Source: Methylophilaceae bacterium
GTDB lineage: Bacteria; Pseudomonadota; Gammaproteobacteria; Burkholderiales; Methylophilaceae
Length of the DNA: 52,935 nt
Direction: 5' to 3'
NCBI GenBank assembly: GCA_028355955.1
Contig: JAOMTQ010000007.1
Span: forward strand, 1 to 52,935
Below the pieces are notes generated by a model that saw only the letters and a program-made list of their open reading frames with translations, searched no databases and was not told the origin of the DNA. Below are positions 13,744-27,747 of this stretch, piece by piece. Numbering within the stretch: the first letter of the stretch is position 1; every line of letters starts with the position of its first letter. The position numbers and the translations under genes are program-made.

Positions 13744-14961
13744 CTATTGCTGATCACACCAATCTGCATAAGCTTGTACAATCTTTCTTCTATCCTCTAA
13801 ATAATCTTCCTTACCCATATAAACCTTTCTAATATCAGTTGAAGTAAATGCATGGGTTAACTGCGATTCTATCTTCTCAATCTCAAACTTATTCATCTTG
13901 GATACCACTATATTAAATAGTGTTCTGAATCCATGAACGGTTGCCTTATCACCTGTTAATCTTTGCAAACATAACCGAGCAGTTGCGTCTGATATCGGCT
14001 TACCTTTATTACCCTCAAAGATATAGTCTGTACTCTTACTATTAAGAAAAGTCCTTAAGGCATTAAGTTTAATCATAGCTTGTTTAGGTAGGGGACATCT
14101 AAAGCCTTGCCTACCTTTCATGAACATACTTGGCACATGCAATGTATTAGTTTTACTATCAAGCCATTTCCATTGGGCATTGGCTAGAGAGCCTGTTCTT
14201 AAACCAGTTACCATAACAACATATAAGAATGTGCGAGTAATTAAGCCTGATTCTCTGTCTCTGTCCAAAGCAGAAATAAACTCACCCACTCTATGTTCTT
14301 CAAGGTGAGAGAAGTGTTTTACTTTGGGAGGGGTAATTAAGCTATTACCTTTTAATTCAAGGGTAGGGTTAGTACCTTTAAATAGCCTTTTCTCTTTCAT
14401 ATGGATAAAGATTTGATTCACTAGGGTCTTAACTTTCATAGCTGAACTAGGTGCTTTGCTATGTACCTTTTCTAATACTGTTAATAGGATTTCATCATTT
14501 ACATCTGCTAGTGGCAGTCTTCCTAGTGGAGTCTTCAAAGAGTTCTTATAAAATTCTTTTGTCCGCTTGATTGTTTTATCTGATAGGTTAGGGACAACCT
14601 TATTATCTAGATACATTTGATATGCTTTCTCAAAGGTCAGATCTGCAAGATCAGTAATGATATGTTTAGCTTTCTTTTTCTCAATAGATGGATCAACACC
14701 TTTTGCCCATAATTTTTTATAGTCATCTCTAATTACTCTAGCTTCTTTTAGGGATATTTCAGGATATGCACCTATACCTCTTTTAGTTTCTTTGCCATTG
14801 TTAACATCTTTACTAAATAGCCTAGCAACCCATGTTTTGCTTCCAGTACTCTCTACCCTTAATAGCAGTCCATTACCGTCAGAGAGCCACTTATATCGCT
14901 TCCCTGATGGGCATTTAGCCTTTTCCACCTTAATATTGCTTAATAAGTTTTGTGTAGCCAT
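13744..14961 (-). CDS. int: Tyrosine-type integrase (P4/DUF4102 family)
   Basis: The 405-residue recombinase has three parts. The N-terminal arm-binding domain of the DUF4102 type spans about 5-90 ('RYKWLSDGNGLLLRV', 'GIGAYPEISLKEAR'). The core-binding domain spans about 105-200 and the catalytic domain about 215-400. The catalytic residues are visible: Arg in 'VTGLRTGSL', Lys in 'FMKGRQGF', 'HGFR' near 347, a later His in 'LTHAF', and Tyr in 'RKVYMGKE'. It should recombine the 20-bp core in tRNA-Ser. The gene lies at the island's right end with its start facing attR, and three copies of the 12-mer sit just upstream of its ATG, so it may repress itself. Confidence 0.93.
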   Translation of the reverse strand: MATQNLLSNIKVEKAKCPSGKRYKWLSDGNGLLLRVESTGSKTWVARLFSKDVNNGKETKRGIGAYPEISLKEARVIRDDYKKLWAKGVDPSIEKKKAKHIITDLADLTFEKAYQMYLDNKVVPNLSDKTIKRTKEFYKNSLKTPLGRLPLADVNDEILLTVLEKVHSKAPSSAMKVKTLVNQIFIHMKEKRLFKGTNPTLELKGNSLITPPKVKHFSHLEEHRVGEFISALDRDRESGLITRTFLYVVMVTGLRTGSLANAQWKWLDSKTNTLHVPSMFMKGRQGFRCPLPKQAMIKLNALRTFLNSKSTDYIFEGNKGKPISDATARLCLQRLTGDKATVHGFRTLFNIVVSKMNKFEIEKIESQLTHAFTSTDIRKVYMGKEDYLEDRRKIVQAYADWCDQQ

Positions 14962-17145: not shown

Positions 17146-17604
17146 ATGTTTTTAAAAAATTTACTTGCCTTAATTTTAACTTTTTCTATTGGAACTGTTA
17201 TGGCAAAAGATCACCAAGTAAAAATGCTAAACGGCAAGGCACCAGATATGTTTGTTTTTGAGCCCGCTGTGATTAAAATCCAAAAAGGAGATACTGTCAC
17301 ATGGTCAGGGGATGCAATGCATAACTCTGCTTCTATCAACAATATGCTCCCCAAGGGTGCGTCACCGTGGGAGGGTAAATTAACGAAAGAGGCAGGTGAG
17401 GTTTCAATATCAGTGAAGTTCGAAACTGAAGGTGTCTATGGCTACAAATGTACACCTCACGAAATGTTCGGTATGGTTGGGTTGGTTTTAGTTGGAGATC
17501 CAAGTTCAAACCTTGACAAGGCTACTTCCGAAGGTAAAAAAATTGAGGGTAAATTTGCAGCAGGTAAGGGTAGATTTTCAGAATACTTTTCTCAAATAAA
17601 ATAG
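17146..17604 (+). CDS. Pseudoazurin (type I copper protein)
   Basis: The 152-residue protein has a signal peptide ending 'GTVMA' (about 20) and a cupredoxin fold. The four copper ligands are in place: His59 ('AMHNSAS'), then Cys102, His105 and Met110 in 'KCTPHEMFGMVG'. The ligand spacing and 'GVYGYKCTPHEMFGMVGLV' identify pseudoazurin rather than azurin or plastocyanin. It should shuttle electrons in the periplasm, possibly from a methanol dehydrogenase cytochrome or to a reductase. A good ribosome site 'ttggag' precedes the start, and it is a single-gene unit. Confidence 0.92.
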   Translation: MFLKNLLALILTFSIGTVMAKDHQVKMLNGKAPDMFVFEPAVIKIQKGDTVTWSGDAMHNSASINNMLPKGASPWEGKLTKEAGEVSISVKFETEGVYGYKCTPHEMFGMVGLVLVGDPSSNLDKATSEGKKIEGKFAAGKGRFSEYFSQIK

Positions 17605-17779: not shown

Positions 17780-19054
17780 ATGAAGTCAATATATTGGTTT
17801 AGAAATGATCTGAGAGTAATCGACAATCTCGCATTAAATGAAGCAATTGAATCTTCTGATGAGATTTTTTTTGTGTATGTGCAAGATGTGAAGAGCTTCA
17901 AGGATACTGAGTGGAGGTTCTCCCGCATGGGGCCGCACAGAAAGTTATATTTATCCCAAGGCCTCAATGCTTTGCAAGAAACACTGAGTAATTATGGACA
18001 TTCCTTGAATTATTATTTAGATGACACAGTGGATGGATTGCTTAAGCTTGTAGAAAAATTCCATATTGATCGTATTTACTGTGAATGTATTGATTCTCAT
18101 GAAGAGCTTAATGAAGAAATAAGGTTGAGAGGGCATAAAGTTGATTTATATTCTTATTATCAATCAGGTTTGTTTTTAAATGATCAAATCCCCTTTAACT
18201 TAAACGAGCTCCCCGATGTATTTACAAAGTTCAGAAAAGCAATTGAATCACGAGGGGTTAAGCCTATTAAACCCTCACCAATCAATCAAGGAATAAATGC
18301 AATTAAATCAATTGTTGATGAGGAATCAAATGAAATTGAAATCAAGCAATTAAGCTACCCAAAGAGTTCCTTTCCTATTTCTGAAAATAAATTTTTTGGC
18401 GGGGAGGACAAAGGCTTTGCATTCCTAGAGTCCTATTTTAGCTCAAATAAACCCTCTACTTATAAAAAGACAAGAAATGAATTAATGGGAATAGACTTTT
18501 CAACAAAATTTTCACCATGGTTAGCAAGTGGCTATATTTCATCAAGACAAGTTTATGATTTTTTATCGAGTTACGAATCAAGTGTAATAAAAAATGAGAG
18601 CACCTATTGGATATTTTTTGAATTACTTTGGAGGGAATACTTTAGGCTTATCTTTAAAAAGTATGGAAAAAAAATATTTCATAAGCATGGCCTTGGTTTC
18701 TCAGATGAAAAGGTTAGTCATTATCCTGAAAAATTTGAGTTATGGAAGGAAGGAAGAACAGATAGTGATTTCATTAATGCAGGTATGAGGGAACTAAAGG
18801 AGACAGGTTTTCTTTCTAATAGAATGCGCCAGATTGTTGCAAGCTTTTTAGTTAACGAATTATCATGTGACTGGAGGGCAGGGGCTGCTTGGTTTGAATC
18901 TCAGCTTATTGATTATGATGTTTTCAGTAATCATTGTAACTGGGCTTATATTGCAGGTCATGGAACAGATCCTCGAGGAGGTAGGCATTTTAATATTAAA
19001 AAACAAAAATCTTCTTATGATCCAAACGGCTTATATGAGAGGTTTTGGAGTTAG
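17780..19054 (+). CDS. DASH-type cryptochrome/photolyase
   Basis: The 424-residue flavoprotein has the N-terminal antenna domain starting 'SIYWFRNDLRVIDN' and the FAD domain. DASH hallmarks are 'LPDVFTKFRKAIE' near 150-165, 'SPWLASGYIS', 'LLWREYFRL', and the final 'CNWAYIAGHGTDPRGGRHFN' with 'YDPNGLYERFW'. DASH proteins repair cyclobutane dimers, chiefly in single-stranded DNA, and may signal blue light. It is convergent with blh and overlaps its stop by 4 nt. An inverted repeat in the promoter suggests regulation. Confidence 0.93.
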   Translation: MKSIYWFRNDLRVIDNLALNEAIESSDEIFFVYVQDVKSFKDTEWRFSRMGPHRKLYLSQGLNALQETLSNYGHSLNYYLDDTVDGLLKLVEKFHIDRIYCECIDSHEELNEEIRLRGHKVDLYSYYQSGLFLNDQIPFNLNELPDVFTKFRKAIESRGVKPIKPSPINQGINAIKSIVDEESNEIEIKQLSYPKSSFPISENKFFGGEDKGFAFLESYFSSNKPSTYKKTRNELMGIDFSTKFSPWLASGYISSRQVYDFLSSYESSVIKNESTYWIFFELLWREYFRLIFKKYGKKIFHKHGLGFSDEKVSHYPEKFELWKEGRTDSDFINAGMRELKETGFLSNRMRQIVASFLVNELSCDWRAGAAWFESQLIDYDVFSNHCNWAYIAGHGTDPRGGRHFNIKKQKSSYDPNGLYERFWS

Positions 19055-19944
19055 ATAATTTTGGCTTTGGTGAAGTGCATTATTTTTGGTAAAAGCATGT
19101 GTGCAATTGTTAGGCATGCCAGAATTGGGAACACAATTAAAAAACCTTCAGCACTTAGGTCCAGATTTAAATAAATAATTATTAGGGTAATGGGGGTAGT
19201 AAATAGTAAAAGCCAAAGCGTATCAGAGAAAAAATTAAAATTGTAGTTAATTAGTGCTCTCATTCCATGCAATATACAGAAATAAAACCCAAACCAAACT
19301 AACGGGTGCAGGTAGTATCCTAATAACACCATGATGATCAATTCCCCCACTAGTAGTAAATAAATCTTATCTTTCATTTTAAAAAAATTAAATAGTACAT
19401 AACTAGATAAAAAGATAAGGTTTAAAGAGACTAAGTATTGTAAAAATCCAAGTGAAGAGGGGAGAGTATTACTTTCTGTTAACAAATAAAATATTTCACC
19501 AACACTTGAATGATGAAATAACACTGGCATAAAAGTCATAGCAAAACCCCAACTATATTCTAAATATTTTTTTTTGCTAGCAATGTATGCAAGGTCTGAA
19601 TGACCAAAATGAATAATTGATATGAAGAGCAAAATAAACAGACCTAAGCTGGGAGATAGAACCCATAAGAATAGCCCTAAAAGAGAAATTGATATGTAGA
19701 TAAAATAAAGTATGAAGGAATTTTTCTTACTTCCGTTGTCCCAAATAATTTTCCCATCGAATGCACCGTGACTAATCCCCAATGTACTTATTAAAAGAAA
19801 TGAAATTAAAAGAATGGGGTTTGTATTTGAAAGAAGCTTAAAATCTAAATTTGAATGAGTTGTTGGGATAAGAGAAAAGTATAAGGACAAAAGGACCAGA
19901 CCACTAATAATGACGAATATTTGGTGTTTTAGTACCTTACTCAT
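19051..19944 (-). CDS. blh: Beta-carotene 15,15'-dioxygenase (Brp/Blh family)
   Basis: The 297-residue integral membrane protein has about eight hydrophobic segments. The conserved His clusters are present: 'GISHGAFDGKIIW' near 56, 'SIIHFGHSDL' near 110, and 'ILHGMRALINY' near 220, expected iron ligands. It cleaves beta-carotene into two retinals. It is the last gene of the rhodopsin-crt cluster and overlaps the crtY stop by 4 nt, which fits its role as the final step of retinal supply. Confidence 0.94.
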   Translation of the reverse strand: MSKVLKHQIFVIISGLVLLSLYFSLIPTTHSNLDFKLLSNTNPILLISFLLISTLGISHGAFDGKIIWDNGSKKNSFILYFIYISISLLGLFLWVLSPSLGLFILLFISIIHFGHSDLAYIASKKKYLEYSWGFAMTFMPVLFHHSSVGEIFYLLTESNTLPSSLGFLQYLVSLNLIFLSSYVLFNFFKMKDKIYLLLVGELIIMVLLGYYLHPLVWFGFYFCILHGMRALINYNFNFFSDTLWLLLFTTPITLIIIYLNLDLSAEGFLIVFPILACLTIAHMLLPKIMHFTKAKII

Positions 19945-21068
19945 TTCTTCTTCAAGAGACCCTTCAACATTAATCCTTTTGGCATACTCATGATGATATT
20001 TATAATATCTGTCCGTGATGGTTTATCTGATAAAAATTTAATAAGCGATTTATGATTTGATTTACTAAAAAGATTAATAAATAAATCGGGACTTTTATCC
20101 GGATAATTTTTAATGACTCTAAGGAAAATTTTATCAAAAAAATCAAGCAATGGATTTGGAATATATTTAAAAGATAATAAATTATTTTTCTTTAAAGTTT
20201 TACCCTTATGCATTGAAAGCCAATTTGCAATTTTTCGCATAGAATAACCAGATGAAGCCCTTACCATGCCAGCACTTGTACCTATCTTAAATATCTTTTT
20301 ATTTTTTTTAGCTTCTATTAGCACCATAGGAATAATACCTCTTTCAGTTTTAAGTATTTTATAGGTCCCATATTTTTTTAAATTTTTTGTATGCTTACTT
20401 TGAAGTTTTTTTAAATTTGGATTTTTAGAAAATAAAGTCGTCTCAACAAGAGCTCTTTTTTTAGTGAAAGGGAGTTGATAAATAAATTCTGTTTCAGTTT
20501 TATTTTTTGAAAATGACATTATAGTTGCTTCAAATTTATTAAAATAATTAGAGTTAACTTCAATTTCGTTACCAATAAATGCTTGTTGAATATATTCAGA
20601 TTTAATTTCACTTTTCTCTATCTTAGGCCTACTATCAATGATATATCTAGAGGAGAAATTGCCATTCGAACTGGCTACTTGAATTTTTTTACCCATCTCA
20701 TTTACTCTTTTTACCTTTGTGTTATATAGAGTTTCAACCTGTCCTTTTATTTGTCTTGAAAGTTTCTTTAAGGTGGCATGACCATCATGGTAAACATAAC
20801 GATAAGGCTGGATATCTTTTTTAATTTTCTCCCCATTATTCTCAATTAATATTTTCTCCCATCGATGTTTTGCTCTAAGTTTGAATTGTTTTTCAATATC
20901 AATTAATCCAGGACCCTCCCAAACACAAAAGGACTGGTTATTAGTAATAGACTTTTTTTGCTCTAAAACTAGAACCGATAATTTAGTTTTTTGTTTAAGC
21001 ATCTTGGATAAGAACATAAGGCTAGAGAGACCTGCTCCAATTACGATGATGTCATATTCAGTTTTCAT
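19941..21068 (-). CDS. crtY: Lycopene beta-cyclase
   Basis: The 375-residue FAD-dependent CrtY-type cyclase has the N-terminal dinucleotide fold 'DIIVIGAGLSSLMF'. Family motifs are 'IYQLPFTKKRALVETTLFS' near 200, 'RGIIPM' near 242, and 'GMVRASSGYSMRKIA' near 270. It converts lycopene to beta-carotene. The first base of the ATG is the last base of the crtB stop (TAATG). Lys content is unusually high for the enzyme but similar to its neighbours. Confidence 0.94.
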   Translation of the reverse strand: MKTEYDIIVIGAGLSSLMFLSKMLKQKTKLSVLVLEQKKSITNNQSFCVWEGPGLIDIEKQFKLRAKHRWEKILIENNGEKIKKDIQPYRYVYHDGHATLKKLSRQIKGQVETLYNTKVKRVNEMGKKIQVASSNGNFSSRYIIDSRPKIEKSEIKSEYIQQAFIGNEIEVNSNYFNKFEATIMSFSKNKTETEFIYQLPFTKKRALVETTLFSKNPNLKKLQSKHTKNLKKYGTYKILKTERGIIPMVLIEAKKNKKIFKIGTSAGMVRASSGYSMRKIANWLSMHKGKTLKKNNLLSFKYIPNPLLDFFDKIFLRVIKNYPDKSPDLFINLFSKSNHKSLIKFLSDKPSRTDIINIIMSMPKGLMLKGLLKKK

Positions 21069-21955
21069 TAAAAATTTGTATCCGGGAGATCTTCAAGTGA
21101 AGCATGTAATTTACTTTCATGTAAGGGCTTATCAATGACATTTGAAAGATTAAGTAATGTTTTAATTGTTAGGTTAAGCTTTTCAAATTTACTAAGGAAT
21201 ACCCGCTGTTCATTAAAAGAACAATTTTTTTGTATTATCTTGTGCCCTATACCCTGATAAATATTGGATGCCACCAAAAATGACCTTTTAATTTTTTTTG
21301 GTAGCTGATTGATTCCATATACACCACTTTGATAATACTGATCAGCTAATATGATAAGTTTATCTCTTGCACCATTAATTATCATCAAGTCAGTTTTTGA
21401 TGGAGCTTTATAATTATCTATTTCTAGGGAGGCGGTTTCACTCTTAGGTAAATATATTCGACCAATTTGAGCATCTTCTTTAATATCACGGCATATATTT
21501 GTTAGTTGCATCGCAATGCCAAAATCAATAGCAAAATATCTTAGCTTTGAATTATGTATATCTAAAACATCACATATCATCAGACCAACAACCCCAGCAA
21601 CGCGATAACAATATTTTAAAAGCTGGCCCAGGTCAGCCGGTTGTTTGAAGCCTATATCGCTCAATTGCCCCTTTAGGAACTCATTTATAATTTCTTGTTT
21701 TGGATGTAGCTTGTTATCGATACCCTTAAATTCTTCGAATATTTCTTTATATTGATTATTATTCATAAGCGACATTATTCTAGTTATCTCTTTTTTAGCC
21801 TCAGAGCTTTTTTTTGATGTGTCGACGAGATCATCAAGCCTTCGACACATTGCATAAACGGCAAACAATTTATTTGCTGTGTCTTTATCCAAAAACCAAG
21901 AAGCCCAAAAAAAAGACTTACCATGCTTCTGCATGACTTTTGAGTAATTACTCAT
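21068..21955 (-). CDS. crtB: Phytoene synthase
   Basis: The 295-residue enzyme of the squalene/phytoene synthase family has both Asp motifs: 'CRRLDDLVDTS' near 40 and 'NICRDIKEDAQIGRIYLP' near 150. The N-terminal 'SNYSKVMQKHGKSFFWASWFL' is typical of CrtB. It joins two geranylgeranyl diphosphates to phytoene. It overlaps the crtI stop by 4 nt. It is distinct from HpnC and HpnD of the window and placed by its operon. Confidence 0.95.
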   Translation of the reverse strand: MSNYSKVMQKHGKSFFWASWFLDKDTANKLFAVYAMCRRLDDLVDTSKKSSEAKKEITRIMSLMNNNQYKEIFEEFKGIDNKLHPKQEIINEFLKGQLSDIGFKQPADLGQLLKYCYRVAGVVGLMICDVLDIHNSKLRYFAIDFGIAMQLTNICRDIKEDAQIGRIYLPKSETASLEIDNYKAPSKTDLMIINGARDKLIILADQYYQSGVYGINQLPKKIKRSFLVASNIYQGIGHKIIQKNCSFNEQRVFLSKFEKLNLTIKTLLNLSNVIDKPLHESKLHASLEDLPDTNF

Positions 21956-23418
21956 GGGTATAAAATCTTCTCAACTGCCTTTGCTGAATTAATTACACCA
22001 GGCACACCAGCGCCAGGATGTGTGCCTGCGCCTACATAAAATAAATTTTTATACCTACCATCTTGGTTATGCGTTCGAAACCATGCTGATTGCCTTAAAA
22101 TAGGGGCTATTGAGAAGCCACTTCCAAAGGGTGTTCTATAATTCTTTTGAAAGTCTTTTGGTGTCATCGAAAAGACATCTCGCGCATTTTCTTTTATGCT
22201 CGGCATGATTGTTCTTCCTAAAGCATCAAGGATCTTATTTGAAAACTGCACTTTAATTCTATCCCAATTCTGATTGCCTTTTAGGTTTGGAACGGGGACG
22301 AGTGCGTAATAGCTGTCATGACCTTTAGGTGCAAATGATGAATCAGTACAAGTGGGCCTATGGAGATAAATAGAGAAATCCTCTGCTAGTTTATGGTGAT
22401 CAAAAATATCTTTGAGTAGCCCCTTATATCTTGGCCCCATCCAGATTGTATGATGGGCAACATTTTTATATTGTTTTTTTGATCCAAAAAATAAGACAAA
22501 AAGACCCATAGAGTGCTTAGCAAACTTATTAACGAAGGCATTATGAAGCGATATTTTTTTTCTACCGATGAGCTCGGTTGAGACTTGAATAGGGTCAGCA
22601 TTAGTGATGATAAGATCAAACCTTTGACTTTGACCATTTGTAAAATTAAGCTCTGTAATTTTATTACCTTTAGTTGATAGACGCTCAACATCATGTTGAT
22701 ATTTTATTTTAATACCTTGTCGCAACATCAGTTTTTCAAGTTCCTGAACAAGCTTACCTGTTCCTCCCATACAGAAGTAAATACCCCATTTCTGCTCTAA
22801 AGAGTGAATGAGGGCGTAAATAGAGGAAGTTTGAAATGGATTACCTCCAACTAACAATGGTTGGATTGAGAATGCTTGTCTTAGATTAGGATGTTCTAAA
22901 TATCTTGAAACAAAAGTGTATACGGATTCATACCCCCGCATTTTAATAATTGCAGGTGCGTATTTAATCATTGTCATGATTTTATGGAAGGGGTGCCCAG
23001 CTAATTTTTGATATCCTAATTCAAATATTGCATTTGCCTCTTTAAGCATTTTTAAATAACCATCTACATCTTTCGGCGAAATTTTTTCAATTTGAGCAAG
23101 CATTTCTTCTCGATTAGGACCATAGTCAAATTGTGTTTGATCATGGAAGTTGAATCGGTACCATGGATCTAATGGTCTAAAGTCTAGGTGGTCATCAAGT
23201 TTTTCGTCAAATAATTCAAATAATTCACGGAATAAATAAGGTGCTGTAATAACAGTAGGACCTGCATCATGGATATATCCATTTTTTTTGAATACTTGAG
23301 CGCGACCACCCAACGTATCTAGCCTCTCAAAAAGCGTAACATCAGCACCTCGTGCACGAAGCCTAAGTGCTGCCGCGATTCCACCAAAACCTCCCCCAAT
23401 AATTCCAACCTGTTTCAT
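21952..23418 (-). CDS. crtI: Phytoene desaturase
   Basis: The 488-residue FAD enzyme begins with 'VGIIGGGFGGIAAALRLRARG', the dinucleotide fold, followed by 'ERLDTLGGRAQVF'. The C-terminal 'NLFYVGAGTHPGAGVPGVIN' is the CrtI signature. It makes lycopene from phytoene. It overlaps both crtE and crtB by 4 nt. Confidence 0.96.
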   Translation of the reverse strand: MKQVGIIGGGFGGIAAALRLRARGADVTLFERLDTLGGRAQVFKKNGYIHDAGPTVITAPYLFRELFELFDEKLDDHLDFRPLDPWYRFNFHDQTQFDYGPNREEMLAQIEKISPKDVDGYLKMLKEANAIFELGYQKLAGHPFHKIMTMIKYAPAIIKMRGYESVYTFVSRYLEHPNLRQAFSIQPLLVGGNPFQTSSIYALIHSLEQKWGIYFCMGGTGKLVQELEKLMLRQGIKIKYQHDVERLSTKGNKITELNFTNGQSQRFDLIITNADPIQVSTELIGRKKISLHNAFVNKFAKHSMGLFVLFFGSKKQYKNVAHHTIWMGPRYKGLLKDIFDHHKLAEDFSIYLHRPTCTDSSFAPKGHDSYYALVPVPNLKGNQNWDRIKVQFSNKILDALGRTIMPSIKENARDVFSMTPKDFQKNYRTPFGSGFSIAPILRQSAWFRTHNQDGRYKNLFYVGAGTHPGAGVPGVINSAKAVEKILYP

Positions 23419-24383
23419 TTCCTAACCTTATCCAAATTTTTCATTCTAAAATTAATTTCGTTATAGATTGATACCAATACAGGCTCAATGACTTTAGGCA
23501 CCCTATGAAATTCATCTTTCGCTTCGTTTAATAGACTTTTGATCATATTTTTTTGATTATCAAATGCAATCTCATTTAATTGATTAATAAGAGTGCCAGG
23601 GTCTTTGATAATTTCAATTTTTTTGGATGCGTCTATGTATTGTAAAATATTAATTAACATCCCATTTGGATGATTATTATAAATATCCGTAAATTTATCT
23701 TGATCAACTCCTATTAAATTTTCTAAGTCATTTAGCCATTGATAGGAAAGCCCAAGGATATCTGAAGACTTTTGAAGCCCTTCACATTCTCCTTTTGAGC
23801 ATTCCTTACATTCAAACATCCCCATCATTGGAAGTGAGATAAAAGGTGCTGTTTTATGGGTCGCCATTCTTTTATATTGATCCCATGTCATTTCATAGGG
23901 ATTACTACTTATATCCTTTGATTGTCCAAAAATTATTTCTTTTACCGAGTTAGAAAGTAGCTTCAATAAAATTGTTTGGTGCCAGCCCTGATCAATTTCT
24001 GTTATTTTTCTGAAGGACTCTGCAATTAAATAATCGCCTGTGCAGATAGCAGCAGATATTCCAAACTCTTTCCATAAGCTCGTTTGCCCACGTCTTAAAT
24101 TATCTTGATCACATATATCGTCATGAAGCAGGGATGCGCTATGAATTAACTCACAAACGACTGCCCAGTTGATATAAGTTTGAGATGAAATGCCTAATAA
24201 ACCACCTGTCGCAAGTGCTAATCTGGCCCTTAACCACTTCCCTTGTGAGTCACCATGATGAGATAGCCATGCCGATAAAAATTGATCATCAACTTCAAAG
24301 CTTTTTGCAAAACCAATTTTAACTTTATCTAAAAATTCATCTGCCTCAGGTGGTACAAAAAAATCGTCCCAATGTTTTTTCAT
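23415..24383 (-). CDS. crtE: Geranylgeranyl diphosphate synthase (CrtE-type)
   Basis: The 322-residue polyprenyl synthetase has 'GKWLRARLAL', the first Asp-rich motif 'LLHDDICDQDNLRRGQTSLW' near 96-115, and 'HKTAPFISLP'. The second Asp-rich motif, normally DDxxD, reads 'WLNDLEN' here, so it is partly lost. The operon position before crtI and crtB indicates that it supplies C20 precursor. The degenerate second motif suggests altered kinetics or chain length. It starts 26 nt after the second rhodopsin gene. Confidence 0.88.
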   Translation of the reverse strand: MKKHWDDFFVPPEADEFLDKVKIGFAKSFEVDDQFLSAWLSHHGDSQGKWLRARLALATGGLLGISSQTYINWAVVCELIHSASLLHDDICDQDNLRRGQTSLWKEFGISAAICTGDYLIAESFRKITEIDQGWHQTILLKLLSNSVKEIIFGQSKDISSNPYEMTWDQYKRMATHKTAPFISLPMMGMFECKECSKGECEGLQKSSDILGLSYQWLNDLENLIGVDQDKFTDIYNNHPNGMLINILQYIDASKKIEIIKDPGTLINQLNEIAFDNQKNMIKSLLNEAKDEFHRVPKVIEPVLVSIYNEINFRMKNLDKVRK

Positions 24384-24409: not shown

Positions 24410-25147
24410 TTATGCTCCAATATCAGATTTTCTTTGAGCAATTAAATAAATCATAATACCAAATGCGGCGATTGATAAGATATCTGCAACTGTATAGCCA
24501 ACCTGCAGGTTTACATAGGATGTACTTGGTTTAAATATGGGAAGTAAATAAACAACGGGGTATATTGTCCAAGACGTAATGAGTAACCATCTCGAATTAC
24601 TAACTAAGCTCTGAACAATTTTTGGTTGATTTGAAATAGGATTTTTTAGCTTTATGATTAAGTTGTAAAGAATGAATAAAAAAGGGAACATTGCAAGTGA
24701 CCAATAAATCCATCTCTCATGCAATTGATCAGAACCGACTAACCCTTCGCCAGAGTAACCTAAGAGCACCATAATGATTGCAGCAATAGTCAACTTAGCT
24801 CCTAAAGAAAAGGTCTCCTCTCTCTTGAGCCTTATGACTAAGACGAGTTCAAGTAATAGCAATGGAACTGTTAAAAGCCACCCAACATAGCGATAACTTA
24901 CATTTAATTGCCCACCAGTTTCTGTAATTACCCCATTAATAACTATATAAGCTTCATTGAAGCTCTCAAATATTCTTAAATAATGATAGAGCGCGATAAG
25001 GGAAACCAAACCAGCCAAAGTAAGTGCTGTTTTGTAAGCAGGTGCAACCTGTGACCTTTGACAAAAAAAGAAGACAGTGCTCGCACCAAATGTGGCGATT
25101 GCAAAAGATAAAGTGTTGTAGAGTAAATTGTAGTCAGCTACTTGCAT
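24410..25147 (-). CDS. Rhodopsin-like protein without the retinal lysine
   Basis: A seven-helix proteorhodopsin homologue of 245 residues. I chose the ATG at 25147, with GGAG 4 nt upstream; an ATG at 25162 adds five residues but has no ribosome site. Helix C reads 'SYRYVGWLLTVPLLLLELVL': the Arg, Thr and Glu of the pump motif are kept, but the counterion Asp is Gly89. Helix G reads 'YTVADILSIAAFG': the Schiff-base Lys is Ile226 (codon ATC, 24472-24470), while the helix-G Asp222 stays. His55 in 'LYHYLRI' and the helix-F 'SWTIYPVVY' are also kept. It cannot bind retinal covalently at the usual place. It lies in front of crtE on the same strand. It may be a retinal or carotenoid binder, a partner of the pump or a sensor. 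Confidence 0.9.
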   Translation of the reverse strand: MQVADYNLLYNTLSFAIATFGASTVFFFCQRSQVAPAYKTALTLAGLVSLIALYHYLRIFESFNEAYIVINGVITETGGQLNVSYRYVGWLLTVPLLLLELVLVIRLKREETFSLGAKLTIAAIIMVLLGYSGEGLVGSDQLHERWIYWSLAMFPFLFILYNLIIKLKNPISNQPKIVQSLVSNSRWLLITSWTIYPVVYLLPIFKPSTSYVNLQVGYTVADILSIAAFGIMIYLIAQRKSDIGA

Positions 25148-25172
25148 TACACTCCAAATCATAAAAAAGAAT

Positions 25173-25201
25173 TAAAAAAAACGCGCCATAAATGACGCGT
25201 T
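25173..25201 (-). terminator. Rho-independent terminator after proteorhodopsin
   Basis: On the reverse strand a 9-bp stem AACGCGTCA/TGGCGCGTT (one G-U, loop TTTA) is followed by at least eight T. It lies between the pump gene and the second rhodopsin. Most transcripts should end here, leaving reduced read-through into the lysine-less rhodopsin and crt genes. Confidence 0.88.
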
Positions 25202-25228
25202 TTTAATATTACACTACAGATTCAAAAA

Positions 25229-25924
25229 TTACTTGGCTTTTGAACCTGATGTAGCTGCTGCCCATATTACAACACCGAAGGCAATCTTGTTAACAAAGTC
25301 AGCTAAGTTATATACGATGTTTAGAGTACCGGCATCAGCGCTGCCTGTATACCCAAGATAGTAACCAATTGGATAAATAGCCCAACCAACAGTTACAATC
25401 AATCGTAACGCATTAAATGCTTTCTTACTTGCCGCAGTACCTTTGCTTGCACTAATTTGGCTAGCTTCACCTTTAAATACTTCCCAGATGATGTATAACC
25501 ATGCAACCATACCAATCCAGAAACCAGACCATAAGCTACCACCGTCTCCCATTGCACTTACTTCACCAATGTAGCCTGCAACTAACATAACTACAGAAGC
25601 AATAAGTAAACGCCAGAAAACTGAAATAGAGACAACTGCAATCGCAGCAAGAATTAAATAAAACTCTACAATTTGAAGTGGAACTGTGAGTAGCCAATCT
25701 ACGTACCTAAATACAGTAGGCGAACTACCTGTTTCAATCCAAATACCACGCATATAAAAATAGTGAATAGCAGCAATACCTGTAACCATTGCGGCCACTG
25801 TAAGTGAAGTTTTCCATTTACCTACAGCCCTATCTCTCTCAACCCAGAAAAAAAATGTTGCAGCAACCATAGCAGCCGAAAGTAGCCAAAAGGTAACTCC
25901 AACGTAATCTGATGGATTTAACAT
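25229..25924 (-). CDS. Proteorhodopsin, light-driven proton pump, blue-tuned
   Basis: The 231-residue seven-helix protein is a canonical proton pump. Helix C is 'FRYVDWLLTVPLQIVEFYLI': Asp76 (counterion/acceptor), Thr80 and Glu87 (donor), the DTE motif. Gln84 is at the spectral tuning site, where Gln gives blue and Leu green absorption. His54 in 'AIHYFY' pairs with the counterion. Lys213 in 'YNLADFVNKIAFG' forms the Schiff base. It pumps protons outward across the inner membrane. The start has a strong 'aggaggg' site about 10 nt upstream. A terminator follows, so it is probably a highly expressed single-gene unit. Confidence 0.96.
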   Translation of the reverse strand: MLNPSDYVGVTFWLLSAAMVAATFFFWVERDRAVGKWKTSLTVAAMVTGIAAIHYFYMRGIWIETGSSPTVFRYVDWLLTVPLQIVEFYLILAAIAVVSISVFWRLLIASVVMLVAGYIGEVSAMGDGGSLWSGFWIGMVAWLYIIWEVFKGEASQISASKGTAASKKAFNALRLIVTVGWAIYPIGYYLGYTGSADAGTLNIVYNLADFVNKIAFGVVIWAAATSGSKAK

Positions 25925-26220: not shown

Positions 26221-27747
26221 ATGAATAAATTAAGATTAATTTTAGGCGATCAATTAAATATTAACCATTCATGGTTTAAGGAAAATAGTTCTTTAACCAC
26301 TTATGTGATGATGGAGGTTAAAGAAGAAACCAGTTATGTAGTTCATCACGCACAAAAAATAATAGCAACATTTTCAGCGATGCGTTTTTTTGCGAAGCAA
26401 TTACAACAAAAAGGCTTTGAAGTTATTTATTTAAAAATAAACGATAAAGTAAATGAGCAGAGTTTTTACCAAAACATTAATAAAATTATCAAAGAAAGAA
26501 ATATAAGAGAATTACAATATCAAGAACCCGATGAATACAGGTTGTTACTTGAATTAAAAAAACTACAGTCTATCAAAAATATAAAAATTGAATCAGTTGA
26601 CTCAGAACACTTCTTAGTCTCAAAGCTCTATGCTAAAAATTTCTTTTCTGAAAAGAAACATTGGCGAATGGAAGAATTTTATAGAAACATGAGAAAGAAA
26701 TTTTCTATTTTAATGGATGGAGATAAACCTATTGGAGGCAAATGGAATTATGACTCGGATAATAGAAAAAGATGGGATGGTAACCCAAGCACAACAGAAG
26801 ACTTCAGACCATCTCATAATCACGAAAAGCTTCTTTTAGAAATAAATAATGAAAATATCGAGCGCTTTGGTGAACCCCAAGAAACAAATTTTCGTTGGCC
26901 AATAAGCAGGGAAGAGTCTATTAAATTGCTTGATAGTTTCATTGTAAAAGACTTAGTCAACTTCGGTGATTTTCAGGACGCGCTTCATGATGAAAATTGG
27001 AGATTGTTTCATTCTTTCTTATCTTTTTCGCTTAATTCTAAAATGCTTAGCCCTCTTGAGGTGATTAAAAAAGCTGAAGAAGCTTTTTATGAAAAGGATT
27101 TACCACTAGCATCCGTTGAAGGTTTTATTAGGCAGATCTTAGGCTGGCGAGAATATATTAGGGGAATCTATTGGGCAAATATGCCTGGCTATGATCAGCA
27201 TAATTTTTTTGAACACAAAGCTAAGTTACCAGATTGGTACTGGACAGGAAAAACCGACATGCGTTGTTTGTCATTGAGTATTTCTCAATCATTAGAGAAT
27301 GCTTATGCTCACCATATTCAGAGATTAATGATTATAGGTAATTTTAGTTTGTTGGCAGGGTTGGATCCTAAAGAAGTGCACAAATGGTATCTTGGCATTT
27401 ATATTGATGCCTATGAGTGGGTAGAGCTGCCAAATACATTAGGGATGAGTCAGTTTGCAGACGGTGGTTTACTTGCTACGAAGCCTTATGTTTCATCAGC
27501 TGCTTATATAAATAAAATGGGTAATTACTGCTCTGATTGTAAATATAAACCTAAGGAAAAACTCGGGGAAGATGCTTGCCCATTTAATTCACTTTATTGG
27601 AATTTCTTTGATAGGCATCAAGATAAACTCTCAAATAATCCAAGGCTTGGAATAGTTAATAGTCAACTAAAAAAAATGGATAAGCACCAAAAAATTGAAA
27701 TAAATAAGAAAGCTAATTTTTATTTAGACAACATAAATTCACTGTAA
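26221..27747 (+). CDS. phrB: Iron-sulfur (6-4) photolyase (FeS-BCP/PhrB type)
   Basis: The 508-residue photolyase-related protein begins 'LRLILGDQLNINHSWF'. Four cysteines at about 349, 437, 440 and 453 have exactly the spacing (88, 3, 13) that I recall for the 4Fe-4S ligands of Agrobacterium PhrB. The FAD-domain segment 'AYAHHIQRLMIIGNFSLL' carries the conserved His pair. These enzymes repair (6-4) photoproducts using a FAD and a lumazine antenna. It is divergent from the proteorhodopsin gene. Along with DASH it brackets the light cluster. Confidence 0.94.
   Translation: MNKLRLILGDQLNINHSWFKENSSLTTYVMMEVKEETSYVVHHAQKIIATFSAMRFFAKQLQQKGFEVIYLKINDKVNEQSFYQNINKIIKERNIRELQYQEPDEYRLLLELKKLQSIKNIKIESVDSEHFLVSKLYAKNFFSEKKHWRMEEFYRNMRKKFSILMDGDKPIGGKWNYDSDNRKRWDGNPSTTEDFRPSHNHEKLLLEINNENIERFGEPQETNFRWPISREESIKLLDSFIVKDLVNFGDFQDALHDENWRLFHSFLSFSLNSKMLSPLEVIKKAEEAFYEKDLPLASVEGFIRQILGWREYIRGIYWANMPGYDQHNFFEHKAKLPDWYWTGKTDMRCLSLSISQSLENAYAHHIQRLMIIGNFSLLAGLDPKEVHKWYLGIYIDAYEWVELPNTLGMSQFADGGLLATKPYVSSAAYINKMGNYCSDCKYKPKEKLGEDACPFNSLYWNFFDRHQDKLSNNPRLGIVNSQLKKMDKHQKIEINKKANFYLDNINSL

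Follow-up and report, generated by a model that had tools for sequence, protein, structure and literature searches.

Two rhodopsin genes ahead of the retinal genes

The window, a stretch of 52,935 nucleotides from a Methylophilaceae bacterium, carries two adjacent rhodopsin genes upstream of a set of carotenoid genes and blh (Table 1). The first encodes a proteorhodopsin-type pump and the second an opsin in which the residue that should bind retinal is no longer a lysine. This second gene had been predicted to span 24410–25147, and those coordinates are borne out. The ORF lister begins the frame five codons earlier, at 25162, but we favour 25147 because relatives start there and a GGAG lies 4 bases 5' of the ATG. 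The product matches the Bac_rhodopsin profile (PF01036) with an E-value of 8.7e-32. The name crtI in Table 1 is one that we assume from operon order.

Table 1. Genes and sites of the rhodopsin and retinal region, in window coordinates
Feature	Position	Strand	Basis or remark
blh, beta-carotene 15,15'-dioxygenase, makes retinal	19051–19944	−	within operon
crtY-like lycopene cyclase	19941–21068	−	profile match
crtB-like phytoene synthase	21068–21955	−	SQS_PSY
crtI-like phytoene desaturase	21952–23418	−	Amino_oxidase
crtE-like polyprenyl synthase	23415–24383	−	26 bases after lysine-less gene; profile match
Lysine-less xanthorhodopsin-like opsin, 245 aa	24410–25147	−	intact frame, PF01036
Codon 226, ATC, Ile at retinal-lysine position	24470–24472	−	Lys in 24/24 full-length lysine-bearing relatives
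Codon 89, GGG, Gly at helix-C counterion Asp position	24881–24883	−	Asp in 24/24 full-length lysine-bearing relatives
Intrinsic terminator, 12-pair stem and T run, between pump and lysine-less gene	25177–25204	−	conservation
Proteorhodopsin-type proton pump, Lys and Asp kept, Gln at 105	25229–25924	−	profile match, residue alignment

The loss of both the retinal lysine and the helix-C aspartate, on which the original prediction rested, is confirmed: the codon at 24472–24470 reads ATC rather than a lysine codon, and the products of the two codons are Ile226 and Gly89. The protein retains Arg86, Trp90, Thr93 and Glu100, together with His55, Trp193, Tyr196, Pro197 and Asp222, so every residue of helices B, C, F and G that had been listed as remaining is present. 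The predicted structure has seven long helices with a mean pLDDT of 77.4 (47–63 over the first 40 residues). A fold search with this moderate model gave psXR, xanthorhodopsin and Kin4B8 as the best PDB matches, at an rmsd of ∼7, and by sequence the closest proteins of solved structure are Gloeobacter rhodopsin, psXR and xanthorhodopsin. The opsin is a type 1 rhodopsin of the xanthorhodopsin/Gloeobacter rhodopsin type, having the PF01036 match and the seven helices and lacking the lysine, the aspartate counterion and the glycine of the carotenoid site.

The surroundings of the operon include several other genes. Photolyase-like genes flank it on both sides, one of DPRP type (26221–27747, + strand) divergent from the pump and a DNA photolyase (17780–19054, + strand) converging on blh. 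Close photolyase copies in the same frame occur only in the nearest relatives of the window, and some loci of another genus, g15 (L063, L065, L066, L068 and L070), have weaker photolyase-like hits upstream of the pump. A plastocyanin/azurin-family copper protein (17146–17604, + strand) adjoins the photolyase gene, and a phage-type integrase (13744–14961, − strand) is encoded near the operon.

Distribution and history of the two rhodopsins

Bac_rhodopsin matches were found in 54 of the 187 genomes of the window's family. Within its genus 26 of 31 genomes have a match; in 13 the gene is lysine-less and in 13 it is lysine-bearing, one of these latter copies being a fragment that lacks the helix-C region. 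Completeness is 59–92% in the five genomes without a match. All 13 lysine-less genomes have the proteorhodopsin, which lies immediately upstream in 12 and is separated by contig ends in G010, and it was not found in any of the 13 lysine-bearing genomes of the genus. In 13 g15 genomes a lysine-bearing second rhodopsin lies beside a pump gene, which is broken in G087, indicating that a second pump does not force lysine loss. Two g15 loci, L066 (G087) and L065 (G086), each have one rhodopsin of the pair disrupted or truncated. A protein search across the order, in 399 genomes drawn from a larger group, matched 12, with identities of at least 57% confined to the window's family and the others at 35% or below. 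Over their full length, lysine-bearing relatives are 54–63% identical to the lysine-less opsin.

In a midpoint-rooted tree of 37 full-length second rhodopsins, the set also used for ω and for the pocket counts once the fragments of G004 and G086 had been dropped, the lysine-less sequences form one clade with support of 100/99. The lysine-bearing members of the genus are adjacent (84/80) and g15 stands apart (100/100). Because lysine and aspartate are found in both neighbouring groups, in Gloeobacter rhodopsin and in xanthorhodopsin, both residues were lost in the lysine-less clade, and the tree indicates that all 13 cases are a single evolutionary event. Position 226 is Ile in 12 genomes and Leu in one, and position 89 is Gly in 11 and Ser in two. 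Chance or sequencing error is rejected by the occurrence of both losses in all 13 genomes with differing synonymous codons, three for Gly89 across 11 genomes and two for Ile226 across 12.

The expectation that the gene is under selection and not a pseudogene is also upheld by dN/dS across relatives. With the best of five kappa values, a codon model gives ω = 0.076 for the lysine-less set (n = 13). The corresponding values are 0.061 for the pumps that accompany these genes, 0.067 for the g15 set and 0.035 for the lysine-bearing sister set. The log likelihood of the lysine-less set is −4689.9, and −5275.4 when ω is held at 1, 585 log units worse. The value is about twice that of the sister group and near that of g15. 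All 13 frames are open, one of them clipped at its start by a contig end, and with this ω we reject a pseudogene.

As the original prediction had it, the opsin gene heads the retinal operon, and a terminator also lies between it and the pump. The exact hairpin pattern (25179–25202) occurs at a single place in the window's genome. It recurs in 21 of the 31 genomes of the genus (13/13 lysine-bearing and 8/13 lysine-less), at one place each and always 3' of the pump, and the remaining five lysine-less genomes have variants at the same place. A hairpin of this kind lies between the pump and the lysine-less gene in all 12 genomes where the two are contiguous. The evidence for this terminator is its conservation, since a simple terminator scan performs near chance (2 found, 1.3 expected), as does a simple promoter scan (9 found, 8.3 expected). 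A terminator follows the working pump in both lineages of the genus, which leaves the lysine-less gene on the biosynthesis side. Its message is probably less abundant than that of the pump.

The lineages differ in what stands ahead of crtE. All 13 sister genomes have a GC-rich hairpin and T run between the lysine-bearing gene and crtE. Of the 13 lysine-less genomes, G020 alone retains a clean terminator ahead of crtE; two others score weakly there, in one case within crtE, and ten have none. Decayed remnants of the hairpin are seen in several. The window's own subclade of five has no remnant, and in four of these the gap to crtE is only 24–26 bases. The g15 genomes have the terminator after the pump in 13/13 and lack one ahead of crtE in 13/13. 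The second rhodopsin of g15 thus also lies beyond a terminator, an arrangement that lysine-less and lysine-bearing forms therefore share. We take the near-identity of the pump terminators in the two lineages of the genus, together with the decayed second hairpin of some lysine-less genomes, as a hint of a tandem duplication in which the new pump took the place of the first copy.

The neighbouring pump itself appears to have a separate origin. Position 105 is Gln in all 13 pumps of the lysine-less genomes and Leu in all 12 g15 pumps that cover the site; Gln here we take to mark the blue type, assuming both the numbering and the Gln105 rule. The window pump is 71% identical to that of L102, a genome from another order of the same class, and 56–61% identical to the pumps of g15 and other Methylophilaceae, divergent extra rhodopsin copies (32 and 44%) excepted. 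A class-wide pump search matched 18 of 369 genomes, the window's own included. Of the 17 others, 11 were used in a first pump tree and five in a second; the divergent L075 and L077 were excluded from both, and L076 and L084 also from the second. In both trees, which carry long-branch warnings, the remaining Methylophilaceae pumps form a clade (100/99) that excludes the window pump. The window pump joins L102 (100/97) and six other-order pumps (99/94) in the first tree and L102 (95/89) in the second. When L102 is removed from the second tree no other-order row joins the window pump and three such rows fall with the Methylophilaceae pumps, suggesting that its affinity to other orders depends mainly on L102. 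The pumps of the lysine-less genomes are monophyletic at 97/87 in the first tree and 84/77 in the second (97/91 without L102). The simplest reading of these results is that the window pump was acquired separately. A short-word BLAST (E 0.001) for a leader common to the new pump and the sister clade's old one gave no match. Two Methylophilaceae genomes also have divergent extra rhodopsins (L077:2550-3167 and L075:1636-2361); in that of L077, Met takes the place of the His, Lys occupies the proton-donor position and the match contains one in-frame TGA.

The retinal pocket and the possible role of the opsin

For the pocket we used 26 positions that we take, from bacteriorhodopsin structures, to surround the retinal. 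Apart from the lysine and the aspartate, 22 of 24 are invariant in the 13 lysine-less proteins. The changes relative to the pumps are the replacement of Asp89 and Lys226 and the substitution of Ser for Ala225, which adjoins Ile226, in all 13 proteins, and of His for Tyr56 (57 in bacteriorhodopsin) in 4/13. The six cage positions of Becker 2016, given a mapping of that numbering onto the opsin that we assume to be correct, are still Met, Trp or Tyr in 13/13. With the lysine and aspartate both gone, Arg86 and Asp222 still balance each other, perhaps the reason that the two losses go together.

A conserved pocket of this kind would suit non-covalent holding of retinal. Excess conservation of the pocket is nevertheless rejected. 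A first permutation test (0/20000) establishes only that pocket sites vary little, which also holds for the pumps, and we rely instead on a matched test: among sites invariant in the lysine-bearing relatives, 17 of 20 pocket sites are kept compared with 72 of 98 others (p = 0.40). The pocket is kept no better than other core sites and so may be kept for packing alone.

The reading that we prefer, at a probability of somewhat under 40%, is that the opsin is a former pump, superseded and blinded once, and kept as an accessory helper of the retinal and pump system that most likely holds retinal non-covalently. The ancestral protein would have been a light-driven proton pump of the xanthorhodopsin/Gloeobacter rhodopsin type. 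The ancestor of the clade would then have acquired a proteorhodopsin from outside the family, directly upstream, and the new pump would have taken over pumping. The old pump would have lost its lysine and counterion a single time, and with them a buried charge of each sign, and appears to have been held since under strong purifying selection as an accessory protein made from the biosynthesis side of the operon. It would probably still take up retinal without a covalent bond, so that newly made retinal might be held in the membrane and then given up to the pump. In its most specific form, an opsin fold without Schiff-base chemistry but with an intact pocket would reversibly hold the retinal made by blh, be expressed with the biosynthetic enzymes and not the pump, and load the proteorhodopsin that replaced it; we regard this full carrier function as rather unlikely. 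We rank the helper holding retinal first, a subunit of mixed oligomers second and a light-independent receptor third, and the first two are not exclusive.

If it formed mixed oligomers with the adjacent proteorhodopsin as a blind partner, the opsin would tune pumping or stability and need no ligand. This is a tentative alternative that several observations favour. In all 12 contiguous genomes the opsin gene comes directly after the pump (the two are split at contig ends in G010). Ser14 and His55 are conserved in 13/13 even though His55 has lost its aspartate partner; the pair matches Ser46/His87 of Gloeobacter rhodopsin, where, according to excerpts of PMC6677831, this His faces Ser46 of the adjacent protomer, and its retention is compatible with such a contact. 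The helix A–B hairpin is not accelerated whereas helices C–G are: measured against the g15 outgroup, rates in the lysine-less and lysine-bearing sister proteins are 0.208 and 0.222 for the hairpin and 0.419 and 0.357 for C–G. This contrast is suggestive only, because the difference is weak (p = 0.054, or 0.12 without positions 89, 225 and 226). Rhodopsin heterodimers have a precedent in NeoR, as partial accounts describe it, and the authors of the betaproteobacterial Rh-noK speculated on mixed oligomers for their protein in the portion of PMC10308929 concerned. However, a mixed oligomer leaves the retention of the retinal cage unexplained, the terminator between the two genes speaks for unequal amounts, and proteorhodopsins and xanthorhodopsin-type proteins are placed in different oligomer groups by their B–C loop in excerpts of PMC6677831.

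It is improbable that the opsin is a light-independent membrane sensor or structural protein that binds a non-retinal ligand or nothing, like the haloarchaeal and fungal opsin-related proteins. Haloarchaeal lysine-less opsins are expressed and have been proposed as non-light sensors, as stated in part of PMC4915679. Nine residues (Gly135, Gln141, Tyr148, Trp187, Leu189, Leu201, Ser210, Tyr211 and Ser225) are fixed in all 13 lysine-less proteins and absent from the lysine-bearing groups, but this number is not unusual, as counting in the same way yields 8 for the lysine-bearing sister group and 27 for g15. A Pfam scan of ten neighbouring proteins found no transducer, the cage around the retinal is intact, unlike that of the haloarchaeal proteins, and the gene is always found in a retinal operon.

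The remaining explanations fare far worse. A carotenoid bound as antenna or carrier is very unlikely: the protein is of xanthorhodopsin type and its operon contains carotenoid genes, but the glycine that opens the carotenoid site (156 in xanthorhodopsin) is Trp149 in 13/13, and the same Trp is present in Ca. Methylopumilus according to excerpts of PMC6794327. The suggestion in the original prediction that a carotenoid might be held non-covalently thus finds no support at the xanthorhodopsin site. A Schiff base with retinal through another lysine is more improbable still. Schiff-base lysines can be moved by engineering, which counts in its favour, but the search among lysines common to all 13 proteins found no replacement: these (39, 118, 176 and 240) occur also in the lysine-bearing relatives, none is in the pocket list, and 39, 176 and 240 are at helix ends. 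Least probable of all is a decaying remnant awaiting deletion, for although two catalytic residues are gone, the proton-donor Glu has become Gln in 3/13 (and in 1/12 of g15) and ω is double that of the sister group, this ω is far from 1, the frames are open and the gene is kept down to ∼67% identity.

The reason that lysine-less rhodopsins are kept is the question on which this clade is a natural experiment, since, of two sister lineages in one genus that share the gene, one has it as the only rhodopsin found and the other in a blinded form next to a more recent pump. The pocket is conserved and the operon layout defined, so both retinal holding and mixed oligomers become directly testable with matched pairs.

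Comparison with known rhodopsins

Gloeobacter rhodopsin, xanthorhodopsin and psXR all keep the lysine in our alignments, unlike the window's opsin. In the haloarchaeal opsin-related proteins another residue takes its place, a hydrophobic one (Leu or other) in group B, and in this they resemble the window's opsin; as described in part of PMC4915679 (Becker 2016), they have lost most of the retinal cage and many are encoded beside transducers. In contrast, the aromatic cage of the proteins studied here is invariant in 13/13, and the adjacent genes are the pump and crtE, with no transducer. Most freshwater FArhodopsins lack the retinal lysine as well, but in excerpts of PMC10308929 these belong to the proteorhodopsin family and lie beside flotillin. 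The window's opsin is instead of xanthorhodopsin type and lies between pump and crtE, and the Pfam scan of ten neighbouring proteins showed no flotillin.

The xantho-like rhodopsin of Ca. Methylopumilus/OM43 (Salcher 2019) carries the lysine, according to the part of PMC6794327 that describes it. We take the lysine-bearing relatives in this analysis to be rhodopsins of that kind, and the layout in g15 fits the same partial description. They share with the window's opsin a gene ahead of the retinal genes and a Trp at the carotenoid glycine, and differ in keeping both the lysine and the aspartate (24/24), which the window's protein lacks.

As the original prediction had allowed, the class is not new: excerpts of PMC7714340 count about 600 lysine-less rhodopsins among 5,558, and PMC10308929 recounts, in the section available, the Rh-noK of marine betaproteobacteria (Yamauchi 2019, doi 10.1111/php.13114), a xanthorhodopsin-related protein in tandem with proteorhodopsin. 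To this known class the present analysis adds a pump-replacement history, selection figures, a pocket comparison and the terminator layout; the replacement, the terminators and the selection figures are absent from the portions of later accounts of Rh-noK seen, and may be in print already. Rh-noK, as the same section of PMC10308929 reports, bound retinal and pumped once engineering had restored its lysine. Like Rh-noK, it is xanthorhodopsin-related, lacks the retinal lysine and stands in tandem with an intact proteorhodopsin and retinal genes, and, compared by description, it fits the Rh-noK group.
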